From: Aquiflexum gelatinilyticum
GTDB lineage: Bacteria; Bacteroidota; Bacteroidia; Cytophagales; Cyclobacteriaceae
Direction of reading: 5' to 3'
DNA: 64,000 nt
Assembly (NCBI RefSeq): GCF_024741135.1
Contig: NZ_JANSUY010000007.1
Coordinates: 124,001 to 188,000 of the forward strand
Under the pieces are notes generated by a model, which did not search any database, was not told where the DNA came from, and saw only the letters and a program-made list of their open reading frames with translations. This document shows, piece after piece, positions 5,205 to 10,720 of this stretch (positions are counted from its first letter, which is position 1; each line of letters starts with the position of its first letter). The position numbers and the translations under genes were made by a program.

Positions 5205-5373
5205 GGGTAAGGTGGGGGCTTTTATATTTCCTGAAATTTAAAGGTTTTATTATTTCAGATGGCATTTTTTTTATCGCAAATCTCTCTAAGGATTTACCAA
5301 GTATGAAAAGAACTCAAATGATTAGGCTAAACCTGTTTTTCATAGTTTTTTTCAATCAAAGAACCTTTACATT

Positions 5374-5391
5374 TTCGTGATTTTTTTGTGA
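5374..5391 (+). promoter_or_regulatory. candidate OmpR-type direct-repeat operator of the DM13 operon
   Basis: Two heptamers, TTCGTGA and TTTGTGA, are spaced with an 11-bp period, the arrangement bound by tandem winged-helix OmpR/PhoB dimers. The second heptamer ends 43 bp before the ATG of the first DM13 gene. The same pair (TTCGTGA, TTCGTGA, period 11) lies 43 bp before the OmpR-type regulator gene at 10703-10720 on the other strand. The match in motif, period and distance suggests common control. This is inference from two sites only. Confidence 0.5.
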
Positions 5392-5433
5392 TAACTCATA
5401 TGCAATTTTGGATCAAACAAAATCACATCTATT

Positions 5434-5877
5434 ATGAAAAAACTAATCTTATTCTTGTTTGTCGTCATTTTTGCTGCCTGTTCTGAAGATACCGAGCCGG
5501 TAATTATCGATTCAGCATTGCCGGATGGCACTTTGAGCGTTCTTCGCATGGGTACATTCATTGACCAAAACGGTGCCGGAAGCGCAGGCGCAGCATCAAT
5601 CGGTACAGATACCAAAGGGACAGTATTTTTGAGTTTCAACAATGCCTTCAGAACTGCCTTGGGTACAGGAACCGTCACAGTTTACCTGTCAACATCTGAC
5701 ACTTTCACGCCTGACCCGGCTAATGGCAACCCCAATCTATTATTGGTGGGACCTGTTAGAAATGCCGGTGAAAACTTCTTTAAAATCCCGACAGGAACTG
5801 ATTTGGCTAAATATACCCATGTTATCCTTTGGTGTGGATCAGTGGGTATTCCGTTTGGAAATGCAAGGTTGCAATAA
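5434..5877 (+). CDS. DM13-domain lipoprotein, first copy
   Basis: The 147-residue product has a short signal peptide ending AAC, with Cys16 as lipidation site. The remaining part reads as one DM13 domain: a glycine-rich start (GTFIDQNGAGSAG), a middle strand with GTVTVYLST, and the diagnostic end HVILWCGSVGIPFGNARL with Trp133-Cys134. DM13 domains occur with DOMON/cytochrome domains in eukaryotes and have been proposed to act in electron transfer through a conserved Cys; that role is unproven in bacteria. It is the first gene of a set that continues with an outer-membrane barrel, a Crp/Fnr regulator and a second DM13 lipoprotein. A candidate OmpR-type operator lies just upstream. Confidence 0.82.
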   Translation: MKKLILFLFVVIFAACSEDTEPVIIDSALPDGTLSVLRMGTFIDQNGAGSAGAASIGTDTKGTVFLSFNNAFRTALGTGTVTVYLSTSDTFTPDPANGNPNLLLVGPVRNAGENFFKIPTGTDLAKYTHVILWCGSVGIPFGNARLQ

Positions 5878-5891
5878 TCACTCTTCACCGA

Positions 5892-5912
5892 CATCCCGGA
5901 ATTTCCGGGATG
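5892..5912 (+). terminator. hairpin between DM13 gene and barrel gene (attenuator or processing site)
   Basis: A perfect inverted repeat CATCCCGGA-ATT-TCCGGGATG follows the first DM13 stop codon and precedes the barrel ATG by 15 bp. Only TTT follows, so it is a weak terminator at best. It may protect the upstream transcript or lower expression of the downstream genes. Confidence 0.55.
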
Positions 5913-5927
5913 TTTAAAGCTCCAATC

Positions 5928-6797
5928 ATGAAAAATCTAAAATTCTTACAGATAGCAGCACTGTTTTTTGTGGTTCAAGAGGTGGACGGGCAAAGTGGAT
6001 GGACCAAATCAAAAGGTGAAGGGTTTTTCCAAACTTCCTTTTCGACATTCAATTCCAAGGATTACTTCACCCTTGAAGGGGAAAAACTCCTCACCAATAG
6101 GTTTCATCAGCAAAGTATAGTCTTTTATGGAGAGTATGGGGTGACCGACAAATTCACGGTGATTGCCAATCTGCCCCTTCAAAACTTCAACGGTTTTGAA
6201 ACCACTGAAACTGTTTCCGGACTTGGAGATCTTAGACTGGAATTTAAACATTCCCTATTGAAAAAATTCCTGCCATTGGCCATCAGTGTGGCTCCGGAAA
6301 TTCCGACCGGTAGGGCCAATAATTTTGCCAACAGCATAGTCAATGATTTTGAAAGGATCAACCTTCCAAGTGGTGATGGAGAATTCAATGTTTGGACCAC
6401 TTTGGCCACTTCTTTTGCTTTGGGAGACTTTCCGTTTTATGGTTCTTTATTTGGGTCATATAATTATAGAACGCAGTATGACGGGATCTCTTTCAGTGAT
6501 CAGATGGCCGTAGGAGTGGAGTTTGGCTACAAGTTCTTTGATAAGGTTTGGGTCAATGCCAGGCTGAATGGGCTGACTTCTGTAGATGAGATTACAGAGG
6601 TGACGGATTTTGTAAGGGGGGATGGGACAGAATACACCAGTTACAGCATTGGTGCAAGTGTTCCGGTCTACAAGGAATTCCACCTCAATCTCAATTACCG
6701 AAACTTCAACGACCTCTTGTTCCAAAGAAAAAACATCTATTCAGGTGGAGTCTTTACTCTTGGGATCTATTATAACCTCAAACCTACGGCCGAATGA
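5928..6797 (+). CDS. outer-membrane beta-barrel protein
   Basis: I place the start at the ATG at 5928 because the protein then begins with a clear signal peptide (MKNLKFLQIAALFFVV..., predicted cleavage after VDG). An upstream in-frame ATG would overlap the preceding DM13 gene and add a non-signal N-terminus. The mature part (289 residues in all) alternates polar and aromatic residues in strand-length segments, contains many Gly/Asn turns and ends in a strand-like tail, as outer-membrane barrels do. No named family is recognised. It lies between a DM13 lipoprotein and a Crp/Fnr regulator whose ATG overlaps this stop codon, so these genes are probably co-transcribed. Confidence 0.72.
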   Translation: MKNLKFLQIAALFFVVQEVDGQSGWTKSKGEGFFQTSFSTFNSKDYFTLEGEKLLTNRFHQQSIVFYGEYGVTDKFTVIANLPLQNFNGFETTETVSGLGDLRLEFKHSLLKKFLPLAISVAPEIPTGRANNFANSIVNDFERINLPSGDGEFNVWTTLATSFALGDFPFYGSLFGSYNYRTQYDGISFSDQMAVGVEFGYKFFDKVWVNARLNGLTSVDEITEVTDFVRGDGTEYTSYSIGASVPVYKEFHLNLNYRNFNDLLFQRKNIYSGGVFTLGIYYNLKPTAE

Positions 6798-7456
6798 ACA
6801 ACAGCAATATAGTTTCGGGGTATACCTTCGGAAAAAACATTAACCCCGTCGGTTTGATGTTTATGCCTTCCGGAAAATTGGAAAAATTCCAGACTGTCTT
6901 CCATCAGGGGGATTTGGCAAACAAACTTTTTATCGTCAAAAGCGGCTTTGTCAAACTCTGTGAGTTGTCCCAATCAGGTGAAGAGATCATCCATGATATC
7001 AAATCTGAGGGTGAAATATTCGGTGAATGGGACAGTCTCTTCCATCCCGGAATTCATTTCAGGTATTCTGCCATTACCCTTTCAGATAATACTGAGGTTC
7101 ATGCTATCAAATTCTCAGAAACCTCCATTGAACAGCCTTTCAATTCCATCTCAGGACTTTCCAATCTGGTATTGGAAGATTTGAAAAAGCTTGCCCTCAG
7201 ACACCAAAGACTGCTAAACAATGATGCAGCATACCGGATCAAAGAAACCCTCCTCAACCTTGCCAGAAAAGCAGGTCAAAAATTCGGAGATGAAACCCTG
7301 CTCAAAATATGGCTCTCCCATGAAGATATCGCAAAACTCGCTGACACAAGCCGTCAGACTGTGACTGCAGTCATGAATCAACTTAAAAACAAAAATAAAA
7401 TCACTTACTCAAGGGACAGGATTCTTTTCAGAAGCCTGACCGATTTCCACAATTAA
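6794..7456 (+). CDS. Crp/Fnr-family transcriptional regulator (DM13 operon)
   Basis: The 220-residue protein has an N-terminal cyclic-nucleotide-binding-type jelly roll (about residues 20-130, with GDLANKLFIVKSGFVKL and EGEIFGEW) and a C-terminal winged helix. The recognition part is HEDIAKLADTSRQTVTAVMN, near the classical Crp form. This sets it apart from the other Crp-like proteins in the window, which end in IASYLGIT-type helices. Its ATG overlaps the stop of the barrel gene (ATGA), which indicates translational coupling. The conserved cAMP-binding Arg/Ser pair is not obvious, so the effector is unknown. It may regulate the DM13 genes that flank it. Confidence 0.88.
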   Translation: MNNSNIVSGYTFGKNINPVGLMFMPSGKLEKFQTVFHQGDLANKLFIVKSGFVKLCELSQSGEEIIHDIKSEGEIFGEWDSLFHPGIHFRYSAITLSDNTEVHAIKFSETSIEQPFNSISGLSNLVLEDLKKLALRHQRLLNNDAAYRIKETLLNLARKAGQKFGDETLLKIWLSHEDIAKLADTSRQTVTAVMNQLKNKNKITYSRDRILFRSLTDFHN

Positions 7457-7467
7457 ACTCAATCATT

Positions 7468-7908
7468 ATGAAAAAACTAAGCATGATTTTGGTATTGGCA
7501 ACATTCTGCCTTTTTTCTTGTCAAGATAAAGCTGACAAAGTTCCGGCCGATGATTCAGTTGAGGTCACAGGGCCATTGGAAGTAGTCAAAAGCGGTACCC
7601 TTTCCAATCAAAGTGGGGCAGGGACCAGAGGAACCGTTCAGTTGGTAAAAGACCAAGCTGGAAAATTCTACATTTCCCTGAGTGATAATTTCACAACCAA
7701 GTTTTCAACAGGAACTGTCACCGTCTACCTTTCCACTGCCTCTTCTCTTCGATTGAATGAAAGCGGTAGTTTCCAATTGCTTGGATTGGCCAATAGACCG
7801 GGAGCACATTTCTACGAACTGCAAGGCAATAAAGACGATAAGTTTACCCACGCTATCATTTGGTGTGGGGCAGCGGCAATTCCTTTTGGAAATGCCTTAT
7901 TGGAATAA
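7468..7908 (+). CDS. DM13-domain lipoprotein, second copy
   Basis: This 146-residue lipoprotein (lipobox FSC, Cys18) is a paralogue of the product of 5434-5877. Both share the order GTL/GTF start, GTVTVYLST in the middle, and the end FTHAIIWCGAAAIPFGNALL here versus YTHVILWCGSVGIPFGNARL there. The Trp-Cys of the DM13 signature is at 132-133. It starts 11 bp after the Crp/Fnr gene and ends at a strong terminator, which closes the operon. Two copies around one barrel suggest that the lipoproteins serve the barrel or share its substrate; that is inference. Confidence 0.82.
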   Translation: MKKLSMILVLATFCLFSCQDKADKVPADDSVEVTGPLEVVKSGTLSNQSGAGTRGTVQLVKDQAGKFYISLSDNFTTKFSTGTVTVYLSTASSLRLNESGSFQLLGLANRPGAHFYELQGNKDDKFTHAIIWCGAAAIPFGNALLE

Positions 7909-7940
7909 CATTTTGTTTGGTTTGTTTATTTGTAAAAATG

Positions 7941-7967
7941 GGGGATGACTATTCATCCCCTTTTTTT
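7941..7967 (+). terminator. Rho-independent terminator of the DM13 operon
   Basis: The stem GGGGATGA / TCATCCCC with a four-base loop is followed by seven T residues. It lies 32 bp after the last DM13 gene. Confidence 0.9.
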
Positions 7968-8221
7968 GTGGTCCTCTTTGAGAAAATGAATTATGATCCT
8001 ATCTATTCATTATTTTAAAGAATTAAACTAGAATAACTTTTGGTACGGATAATTGTCCGAGGTGAGCAATCCATAGTCCAAAAGATGTAATTATTAAAAT
8101 CATATCATTCCTTTTTTTTAATTAGAAAAAATGTGTGTCAGTATCGTTACACGTATCCGAATAATTCCGGAATTTTCTGCTTAAAACAGAACCTCATTTG
8201 TTCAAGGCGGGGAGGAATGAC

Positions 8222-8318
8222 CCCGAAACTTCGGGAGGCCGGCTCCGGCCTTGTGCGCTGATAGGATTCCGCCGTCTTGGCTTTTTTGGCTACTTTTTTT
8301 GCTAAGAAAAAAAGTAGC
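8222..8318. repeat. cluster of three hairpins in a gene-free stretch
   Basis: The gap 7968-8466 has no convincing gene. It holds CCCGAA/TTCGGG, then GGCCGG/CCGGCC, then a long palindrome GCTACTTTTTTT-GCTAAG-AAAAAAAGTAGC at 8289-8318. The last belongs to a type of A/T-rich palindrome that recurs in Bacteroidota intergenic DNA. The remaining bases of the gap show nothing I recognise. Confidence 0.5.
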
Positions 8319-8466
8319 TGTAAAAATGAGGAATCGATTTTCTATGTCATTAAGAATAATTTAAAGTTAATTTTGGTATGTGCATTCATCCGGATAAACA
8401 TATCAGAAAATAATGGAGTGGAGAAGATTTGTCCTAATCTAATGTTGATTAAAATAAATTCCTTTA

Positions 8467-9933
8467 TCAATTAGACTGCATCGGATCAAGCTCAAAAACA
8501 AATTCCGTAAAGGTGGAAGAATCAGAAAAGACCTGAATGGTGGAATCATGGACTTCCAATATTTTTTTGACAATGGCCAATCCCAAGCCTGATCCTTCAA
8601 TCCCTTTTTTGTCCCTATCGACCATGTAATACCTTTCAAAAAGTGAATCCAAATCCTTTTGTGGTATTCCCGAGCCTGTATTTTTGATACTCACACAGAC
8701 TTTGTAGGTAGTCTGACAATAAAAAGCTTTGAGCGTAATCTTTCCGTTTTCGGGAGCATATTTGACGGCATTGTCTATCAGGTTTTGGATCACCCGGTCC
8801 AATAAATAAAGATCAGCTTCCACGACAGGAAGGGAGGGCGAAATGTCTGCAACAAGGTCTATTTTTTTCGCTTTGGCCAATAGTTCAAATTTCAGACATG
8901 CATCAAAAAGCAATTCCTGAATTCGGAAGGGCTCCAGTTTTAACTGCATCTGACCGGATTCCAGCTTGGACAACTCAAATAAATCCGCGACCAATTTGGT
9001 AAGCCGGTCTGAGGAATCAGAGATTATTTTCAGGTATTGATCTCTTTCAGCTTCTGTGATCTGATCGCCTTTGATCATCATGGTTTCAACGTATCCGTTG
9101 ATTACTGCCAAAGGATTGCGGAGATCATGGGACACATTGGCGATCAATTCCCTTCTCAGGCTATCCACTTTTTTCAATTCATCCATATGGTGGAGGATAT
9201 TGTCGGCCATTTGGTTGAAGGTAGAGGCCAATACCGATAATTCTGAATTGGTCATTTTCTCAGGAATTCTTGCTTCCAAGTCTCCGTCTTTAAACTTCCG
9301 GACTGTGGCTACGATTTCCCTCAGGTTTTTTGTGAGCAGGATAGTCAAAAGTAAGGCGATCAATAAGGCTACGACCATGGTCACAATAAATGACTTCAGG
9401 GTCAGCTTCAGCCAATAACTGCCCAACAGTCCCGCGGCGGCCTCCTCAAACTTTTCACTAGCCAAAGTGATGTAAACATAGCCCAATAATTTTCCGTTTT
9501 CGGTCACTTCTGTTGCAGAGAAAATGGTCTGATATCCATTGGACCTTGGATCATCGCCAAGGATGAATTCTGAGCCTTTGGTTTGGATAAATTCCCGGAC
9601 AGGCTGGATATCGACTCTTTTGAGCTTGACCTTGGAATCCAAAACAACAAATGAGAGGATCTCGCCTTCGGGATCCAAAAGGTAAACCTCAATACTCGGA
9701 TTGACGGCCATCATGGAATGCATGATGACTCCCAATGCCTCTTCATTTACCTCACCGTTTTTGAAGGGCGGCGCTTCTTTGATCAGGTAATCCGCGATGG
9801 AAGCGTTGAGCTTTTGGGTGGTTTCGAGAAAATAATTTTTGGAAGCGATCGTGGTAATGATGATGTAGGCAAAGCCGACCACCATCATGACGAGTGTAAT
9901 CACTACAGAAATTCTCCAATAAAAACTTTTCAT
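8467..9933 (-). CDS. sensor histidine kinase (HAMP, HisKA, HATPase)
   Basis: I choose the ATG at 9933 (MKSFYWRISVV...), which places the first membrane span at residues 8-30; an in-frame ATG 57 bp further up would overlap the regulator gene. The 488-residue protein has a periplasmic loop of about 140 residues, a second span near 175-200, a HAMP linker, the phospho-acceptor His in VSHDLRNPLAVI, an N-box DNAVKYAP and the G-box GSGLGLAIVKKI. This is a classical EnvZ/PhoR-type kinase. It lies 28 bp downstream of its OmpR-type partner on the same strand. The periplasmic sensor loop matches no domain I recognise. Its partner may also act on the DM13 operon. Confidence 0.92.
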   Translation of the reverse strand: MKSFYWRISVVITLVMMVVGFAYIIITTIASKNYFLETTQKLNASIADYLIKEAPPFKNGEVNEEALGVIMHSMMAVNPSIEVYLLDPEGEILSFVVLDSKVKLKRVDIQPVREFIQTKGSEFILGDDPRSNGYQTIFSATEVTENGKLLGYVYITLASEKFEEAAAGLLGSYWLKLTLKSFIVTMVVALLIALLLTILLTKNLREIVATVRKFKDGDLEARIPEKMTNSELSVLASTFNQMADNILHHMDELKKVDSLRRELIANVSHDLRNPLAVINGYVETMMIKGDQITEAERDQYLKIISDSSDRLTKLVADLFELSKLESGQMQLKLEPFRIQELLFDACLKFELLAKAKKIDLVADISPSLPVVEADLYLLDRVIQNLIDNAVKYAPENGKITLKAFYCQTTYKVCVSIKNTGSGIPQKDLDSLFERYYMVDRDKKGIEGSGLGLAIVKKILEVHDSTIQVFSDSSTFTEFVFELDPMQSN

Positions 9934-9961
9934 AAAATCATGTTTTAGTATCCGCAAGTGT

Positions 9962-10660
9962 TTACCATTCGTCATTGAAGCGGTAACCAATCCCCCAAGT
10001 GGTCAGGATAAACCTTGGGTTGTTGGCATCGACTTCGATCTTGGATCTCAGCCGGTTGATGTGGGCGTTGACGGTGTGTTCATAGCCGCTGAAATCATAT
10101 CCCCAAATCAGCTCCAACAGTTCCGACCTGCTGTAACTTCTTCCCGGACTTTTGGCCAAAAGCATGATCAGGTCAAACTCCTTTGGGGTGAGGTCAATTC
10201 TTTTTTGGTTCAAAAGGACCTTCCTTCTTTTTTCATCGATTTCCAGGTTTTCATACCTGACGGCATCCTCATTTTTATTGCTCAGCAGGACAAATTGGTC
10301 TTGCCTTCTCATGATGGCTTTGACCCGGGCGATAAATTCCCTGATTTTGAATGGTTTGGTGATGTAATCATCCGCGCCCGATTCCAAGCCTATCACTTTG
10401 TCAATTTCTTCAGATTTGGCTGTAATCATCAGGATGGGGGTGAAATTGTCCAAGGCCCTGAGCTTTTGGCAAATGCTCAACCCGTCCATTTCGGGAAGCA
10501 TGATATCCAATATCATCAGGTCAAACTGTCCCGAGGAAGCGGATTCATAGCCTAAACGGCCATTGTTGGCTACCTGAATCTGATAACCCAAATCCTTGAG
10601 GTGGATCTGAATCAGTTGGCTGATATTTGGATCATCTTCGACTACCAATACCTTTTTCAT
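9962..10660 (-). CDS. OmpR/PhoB-family response regulator
   Basis: The 232-residue protein has a receiver domain with Asp52 as phosphorylation site (LMILDIMLPEMDG), acidic pocket VEDD, Thr in MITAKS and Lys in ITKPF. The winged helix at about 135-230 carries LTPKEFDLIMLLAKSPGR, EHTVNAHINRLRSKIE and ILTTWGIGYRF. It precedes the histidine kinase gene and both are read from the minus strand. A tandem TTCGTGA repeat with 11-bp period lies 43 bp upstream, suggesting autoregulation. The same motif lies at the same distance before the DM13 operon. Confidence 0.95.
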   Translation of the reverse strand: MKKVLVVEDDPNISQLIQIHLKDLGYQIQVANNGRLGYESASSGQFDLMILDIMLPEMDGLSICQKLRALDNFTPILMITAKSEEIDKVIGLESGADDYITKPFKIREFIARVKAIMRRQDQFVLLSNKNEDAVRYENLEIDEKRRKVLLNQKRIDLTPKEFDLIMLLAKSPGRSYSRSELLELIWGYDFSGYEHTVNAHINRLRSKIEVDANNPRFILTTWGIGYRFNDEW

Positions 10661-10702
10661 AATTGACTAGTTATAAATTCCAATAAAAGTAAACTGAAAT
10701 GT

Positions 10703-10720
10703 TCACGAAAGTATCACGAA
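10703..10720 (-). promoter_or_regulatory. candidate OmpR-type operator of the two-component system
   Basis: Read on the minus strand, two exact TTCGTGA heptamers are spaced by an 11-bp period and end 43 bp before the response-regulator ATG. The site pairs with the one at 5374-5391. Direct repeats of this period are typical of OmpR/PhoB-type binding; which protein binds here is inferred. Confidence 0.5.

Follow-up and report, generated by a model that had tools for sequence, protein, structure and literature searches.

A rare direct repeat as the candidate operator shared by an OmpR-type two-component system and DM13 lipoprotein operons in Aquiflexum gelatinilyticum and related Bacteroidota

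Introduction

PhoB, the response regulator that acts at Pho boxes, activates transcription by standing in for the −33 element of the promoter. The WalK/WalR (YycG/YycF) and MtrB/MtrA systems both act on the cell envelope, and systems of the CpxRA/CpxP type are autoregulated OmpR-type two-component systems with envelope targets. Each 11-bp repeat of the Pho box consists of a conserved 7 bp and then a less conserved 4 bp, as described in an excerpt of PMC2648988. The present analysis concerns a stretch of 64,000 nucleotides from Aquiflexum gelatinilyticum (Bacteroidota, Cyclobacteriaceae; contig NZ_JANSUY010000007.1, positions 124,001 to 188,000), referred to below as the window. In it, the direct repeat TTYGTGA-N4-TTYGTGA precedes both an operon for DM13 lipoproteins and the gene of an OmpR/PhoB-type response regulator encoded next to a sensor histidine kinase. 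The two repeats are very probably the operators of one small regulon, in which an autoregulated two-component system would activate surface-lipoprotein operons, binding and activation both being predicted from sequence patterns.

The locus shares with PhoB and the Pho box the type of regulator and the two 11-bp direct repeats, and the tandem arrangement with a period of 10–11 bp is that of OmpR/PhoB-family operators. It differs in the half-site, which is TTYGTGA here and CTGTCAT in the Pho box, in the lipoprotein-type targets and in the Bacteroidota −7 box. WalK/WalR and MtrB/MtrA provide the top-scoring NCBIfam models for the regulator and the kinase, and a Foldseek search with the kinase model lists the WalK-YycH model 9a5d first; both systems differ from this one in that the scores stay below the cut-offs (225.4 against 725 for the kinase and the WalK equivalog) and in that the targets here are of the lipoprotein type. 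The regulator remains under the cut-off of every NCBIfam model among the best 25 of 81. It was not filed as PhoB (TIGR02154, 201.1 against 296.2 bits; NF053854, 197.3 against 270), WalR/YycF (NF040534, 221.3 against 340) or MtrA (NF040689, 234 against 300) because it fell short of these cut-offs. The likeness to CpxRA/CpxP lies in the proposed autoregulation, the OmpR-type regulator and the envelope targets; the CpxR equivalog gave 149.2 bits against a cut-off of 341, and no search aimed at CpxP was made. The proposed regulon is a new one of a known kind. No description of it was found among the titles and abstract beginnings of the literature matches listed, in a search that left subscription journals largely outside.

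The Two Repeats and Their Rarity

Both repeats were read in the window sequence on the strands, at the positions and with the 11-bp period given for them in the original prediction (Table 1). The last base of each operator is −43 relative to the start codon (ATG at 5434 for DM13 and at 10660 for the regulator), leaving 42 nucleotides between them, and a −7-like box follows the two operators at an identical distance. It had been stated that both repeats end 43 bp before the first ATG, which is correct for each gene's own ATG, but an earlier, out-of-frame ATG lies before DM13 at 5400. When up to three mismatches were allowed, 33 matches were found in the window against 34.25 expected, which is chance level. 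All other matches in the window carry at least two mismatches.

The genome was searched as a 4,999,169-base assembly of 57 contigs, which includes the 64 kb of the window, with two controls, the reversed pattern and a first-order Markov model trained on the window sequence. The whole genome holds two exact copies of TTYGTGA-N4-TTYGTGA, which are the sites described here; the reversed control occurs once, and the Markov model predicts 0.42 copies per genome and 0.0053 per window. Exact copies are thus not scattered, the outcome of a genome-wide motif search that had been proposed as a check. The shorter core GTGA-N3-TTTYGTGA also returned the same two matches only, with one for its reversed control. 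Because 2.4 copies of this core are expected, it is not rarer than chance, so that only the longer pattern carries the argument from rarity. At up to two mismatches the genome holds 179 matches against 147 in the control, that is, near the control level. The 28 of 177 inexact matches that were examined included all eight with one mismatch, and at none of them did a correctly placed −7 box accompany a lipoprotein gene.

Conservation Upstream of the Regulator Gene

A site was counted as intact when both GTGA cores were present, and the loci were read one by one. In the family, 38 of 98 genomes encode a kinase homologue at E 1e-90 or better, and both cores are intact in 28 of the 30 loci returned, the window included; one core is altered at L040, and L047 has no recognisable site. 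At L046, another of these 30 loci, the site is located 176 nucleotides upstream. At the order level, 23 of 291 genomes encode the kinase at E 1e-100 or better; 15 of 20 new loci have both cores, and the five without them (L178–L182) belong to families f5 and f11. No regulator lies in the nearby stretch examined at 32 of the 77 DM13 loci described below, and 22 of those genomes were searched further. One regulator with at least 50% identity was found in 20 of the 22, and the site precedes this distant gene in 17 of the 20, Maribacter, Zobellia and Cellulophaga among them.

When these loci are pooled, 60 of 70 keep both GTGA cores, and 58 of 68 do so once the window itself and the duplicate record L058/L282 are set aside. 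The information content of the regulator promoters does not exceed 0.31 bit in the 50 upstream columns, reaches up to 2.4 bits within the repeat and rises again at TA..TTTG. The conserved columns follow the 11-bp period in regulator and DM13 promoters alike.

Conservation Upstream of DM13

The 77 DM13 loci came from a scan of named genomes, including Aquiflexum, Cognataquiflexum, Algoriphagus, Pararhodonellum, Marivirga, Fulvivirga, Saprospiraceae, Maribacter, Zobellia, Cellulophaga and others. Of the 77 promoters, 48 keep both GTGA cores, and 15 Maribacter/Zobellia loci carry the variant CTTGA-N6-CGTGATA, followed by a TATGTTTG box at the standard spacing. Conservation of the motif before orthologues of both genes had been named as a check on the original prediction, and it is borne out by these 48 intact and 15 variant sites and by the 60 regulator loci.

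With scoring in 220-bp windows, 52 of 77 DM13 loci reached at least 15 of 19, some of them at drifted sites. Random windows drawn from those loci, a control that itself contains real sites, did so in 10 of 1540 cases. Of the 63 DM13 promoters that score at least 14 of 19, 37 show a third and degenerate unit, TTTA or GTTA, 11 bp further upstream. The Zobellia loci L238, L239 and L255 apparently hold a longer array of 11-bp units (GTGA, TTTA, CTTGA, CGTGA), the last of them at the standard distance to TATGTTTG; these are at least the loci where additional GTGA/TTTA units stand 11 and 22 bp upstream.

No recognisable site precedes DM13 at L210, L231, L246 and L257. The regulator found in the L246 genome (L274) has no site either, and a search of the L257 genome for the regulator found none. 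In the Flammeovirgaceae bins L223 and L224 the DM13 site has drifted to GTTA/GCGA cores, and their regulators, the most distant of those found (50% identity), have no clear upstream site, so that regulator and site may have drifted together.

Promoter Geometry

The −7 box was scored as TAnnTTTG at five of six letters or better, at sites with at least 14 of 19. Its one preferred offset is 11 bp past the 18-bp core, where 31 of the 61 regulator promoters and 42 of the 63 DM13 promoters carry it, hence at this stringency in roughly half to two thirds of them. Every other offset accounts for at most five promoters, except offset 16 (15 of 61), which is the operator's own second half. Judged by this box, the promoters appear to be of the Bacteroidota sigma-A type, both boxes in the window being one letter short of the motif. 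In Flavobacterium psychrophilum the box TAnnTTTG lies at −12 to −5, as given in an excerpt of PMC9723704; on this basis the repeat would fall at about −41 to −24, and transcription is predicted to start near 5415 for DM13 and near 10679 for the regulator.

The equal distance to the start codon noticed in the original prediction holds in the window and in close relatives. As a general rule it was ruled out: the distance ranges from 25 to 177 nucleotides among intact sites, and 43 nucleotides are common to Aquiflexum, Cognataquiflexum and some Algoriphagus only. What holds more widely is the 11-bp spacing to the −7 box.

Further Targets in the Family

The stricter pattern YGTGA-N3-TTTYGTGATA gave 35 matches in 26 of the 98 family genomes against four for the reversed control. 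The next gene is the regulator in 16 cases, DM13 in six and another lipoprotein-type gene in nine, which places 31 of 35 matches directly upstream of a regulator or lipoprotein-type gene; the remaining four lie within genes or away from them, or are cut by a contig end. The original proposal is refined in that the site of relatives also stands before other lipoprotein-type genes. Seven of these nine were recognised by a lipobox pattern and two (L111 and L143) by eye. Three exceed a Pfam cut-off (two RskA_C, one DUF7482), another three match at scores under the cut-off (two to DUF7482, one to Spond_N), and the last three gave nothing usable. Additional genes that match Spond_N, RskA_C and DUF7482 follow weaker sites in the neighbourhood of the two-component genes. 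The kinase (E 1e-90 or better) is present in 23 of the 26 genomes with a stricter match against 38 of 98 overall; three of the 60 kinase-less genomes have such a match, in two of these three outside a promoter position.

Two of the compared loci show additional features. At L158:9581-9622 (+), about four 11-bp tandem units precede an RskA_C-like gene divergent from the two-component genes. At L129:6765-7643 (−), downstream of the two-component genes, a weaker operator copy is followed by genes for a protein that weakly matches YHS and PepSY and for a DoxX-like protein.

The Regulator, the Sensor and the DM13 Protein

The regulator combines a receiver with a Trans_reg_C winged helix (PF00072 and PF00486, both over cut-off). 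The genome encodes three other full-length OmpR-type regulators at E 1e-15, with 32–40% identity. Upstream of these paralogues the best scores are 10–12 of 16, with at most one GTGA core. The recognition-helix region GYEHTVN[AS]H[IV]NRLR is kept in 20 of 20 orthologues and differs in the three paralogues.

In the structural model of the kinase (mean predicted local distance difference test score, pLDDT, 77.7; predicted template modelling score, pTM, 0.44), two long N-terminal helices flank an alpha/beta stretch of about 105 residues, which we interpret as a putative extracytoplasmic sensor domain. A Pfam search of this sensor part gave nothing useful, and the catalytic core dominates the matches of the fold search. 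The DM13 model is all-beta (pLDDT 85.0). Its fold search returned no match at E 0.001, the best being the heme-transfer protein Shp (E 0.047) and the superoxide dismutase SOD5 (E 0.052). Among 41 DM13 sequences, Trp133 and Cys134 are invariant and His129 is nearly invariant.

Genes at the Two Loci

The features of both loci are collected in Table 1. The second gene of the DM13 operon encodes the protein that the original prediction called a barrel; a Pfam search up to E 5 gave no match for it, and 76 of the 77 DM13 loci have a homologue of it close by. The Crp/Fnr-type gene of the same operon could supply a second regulatory layer. A G+C-rich stretch (8190–8340) is found in the intergenic region that separates the second DM13 gene from the kinase gene.

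Table 1. Operators, promoter elements and genes of the DM13 and two-component loci in the window.
Feature	Position	Strand	Remarks
Operator 1, TTCGTGA-N4-TTTGTGA, TTCGTGATTTTTTTGTGA	5374..5391	+	11-bp period; upstream of DM13 operon
Degenerate third unit of operator 1, CTTTA	5365..5369	+	11 bp before first half-site
−7 box of DM13 promoter, CAATTTTG	5403..5410	+	Differs from TAnnTTTG by one letter
DM13 lipoprotein, 147 residues	5434..5877	+	Operon gene 1; Pfam PF10517, E 5e-10; lipobox by eye
289-residue protein ("barrel")	5928..6797	+	Operon gene 2
Crp/Fnr-type regulator, 220 residues	6794..7456	+	Operon gene 3; Pfam cNMP_binding and HTH_Crp_2
Second DM13 lipoprotein, 146 residues	7468..7908	+	Pfam PF10517, E 3.8e-6
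Sensor histidine kinase, 487 residues	8470..9933	−	HAMP, HisKA, HATPase_c
OmpR/PhoB-type response regulator, 232 residues	9962..10660	−	Response_reg and Trans_reg_C; proposed binder of both operators
−7 box of regulator promoter, TACTTTTA	10684..10691	−	Differs from TAnnTTTG by one letter
Operator 2, TTCGTGA-N4-TTCGTGA, TTCGTGATACTTTCGTGA	10703..10720 (reads 10720–10703)	−	Upstream of response regulator

Discussion

The proposal that the regulator controls both itself and the DM13 operon through the shared repeat is supported by conservation of the site before both gene sets and by the 17 of 20 genomes in which the loci are unlinked, the causal step being the part that we infer. The adjoining kinase would phosphorylate the response regulator, which would bind as a tandem dimer to two half-sites spaced by 11 bp, with the core YGTGA, and would activate its own operon and the DM13/barrel/Crp/DM13 operon. 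With half-sites 11 bp before the −7 box, the bound regulator would replace the −33 element in the manner of PhoB. Because the kinase has a predicted extracytoplasmic domain, such a circuit would most likely link surface lipoproteins to a signal from the envelope, under positive autoregulation.

Several observations weigh against this reading. At ten of the 70 regulator loci the two cores are not both intact: no site was recognised at L047, L178–L182, L274, L284 and L285, and one core is missing at L040. The same is true of 29 of the 77 DM13 loci, 15 of which are the Maribacter/Zobellia variant. Three of the 56 DM13 loci scoring at least 15 in the analysis of promoter geometry (L238, L239 and L255) were matched at the upstream pair of units and not at the pair beside the −7 box. 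One genome (G002/L210) has the site before the regulator and none before DM13, and in a small Maribacter bin of 2.6 Mb (L241) the variant site is present and the regulator search found none. Many of the compared loci are from close relatives and hence not independent.

The direction of control is a further such point, as a repressor acting at the same stretch would yield the same conservation. It is unlikely, on balance, that the regulator binds both sites as a repressor, although the repeat lies directly before the −7 box, where a bound protein could block polymerase. The preferred 11-bp spacing at both promoter classes and the tandem site with its 11-bp period form instead a layout of the PhoB type, as far as that is described in the excerpt of PMC2648988.

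The identity of the binding protein can also be questioned, as the DM13 operon encodes a Crp/Fnr-type protein of its own and the half-site resembles TGTGA. This sequence is the half-site of Crp, whose sites are inverted repeats, whereas the half-sites described here are direct repeats. A Crp gene is found near DM13 in just 27 of 77 loci, and 41 of the 50 Crp-less loci score at least 13 of 16, a threshold without a control of its own and reached by one of the 41, L259, through a contig-start artefact. In genomes with a Crp-less DM13 locus, too, the response-regulator gene is preceded by the site. Binding of the repeat by the Crp/Fnr-type protein in place of the response regulator was rejected on the Crp-less loci that keep the site, and we regard it as very improbable. 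That the repeats are functionless look-alikes, as the near-control number of matches at up to two mismatches and the single exact match of the reversed control might suggest, was rejected on the conservation before regulator and DM13 orthologues across families and, with the preferred spacing to the promoter box, has a negligible probability.

The regulon with the response regulator as activator invites a broader and more doubtful idea. One two-component system and its operator class may have been kept across much of Bacteroidota, with the lipoprotein swapped by lineage (DM13, spondin-like, RskA_C-like, DUF7482, Ig-like plus DM13). The lipoprotein might then belong to the sensing loop, for example as a feedback ligand of the extracytoplasmic domain of the kinase; we put this forward only tentatively.

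If the proposed regulon is real, it would provide a two-component system of environmental Bacteroidota with a defined operator, a prediction of how its promoters are laid out and a short list of testable targets. The DM13, DUF7482, RskA_C-like and Spond_N-like families would be tied to one regulator, which would offer a handle on their function.

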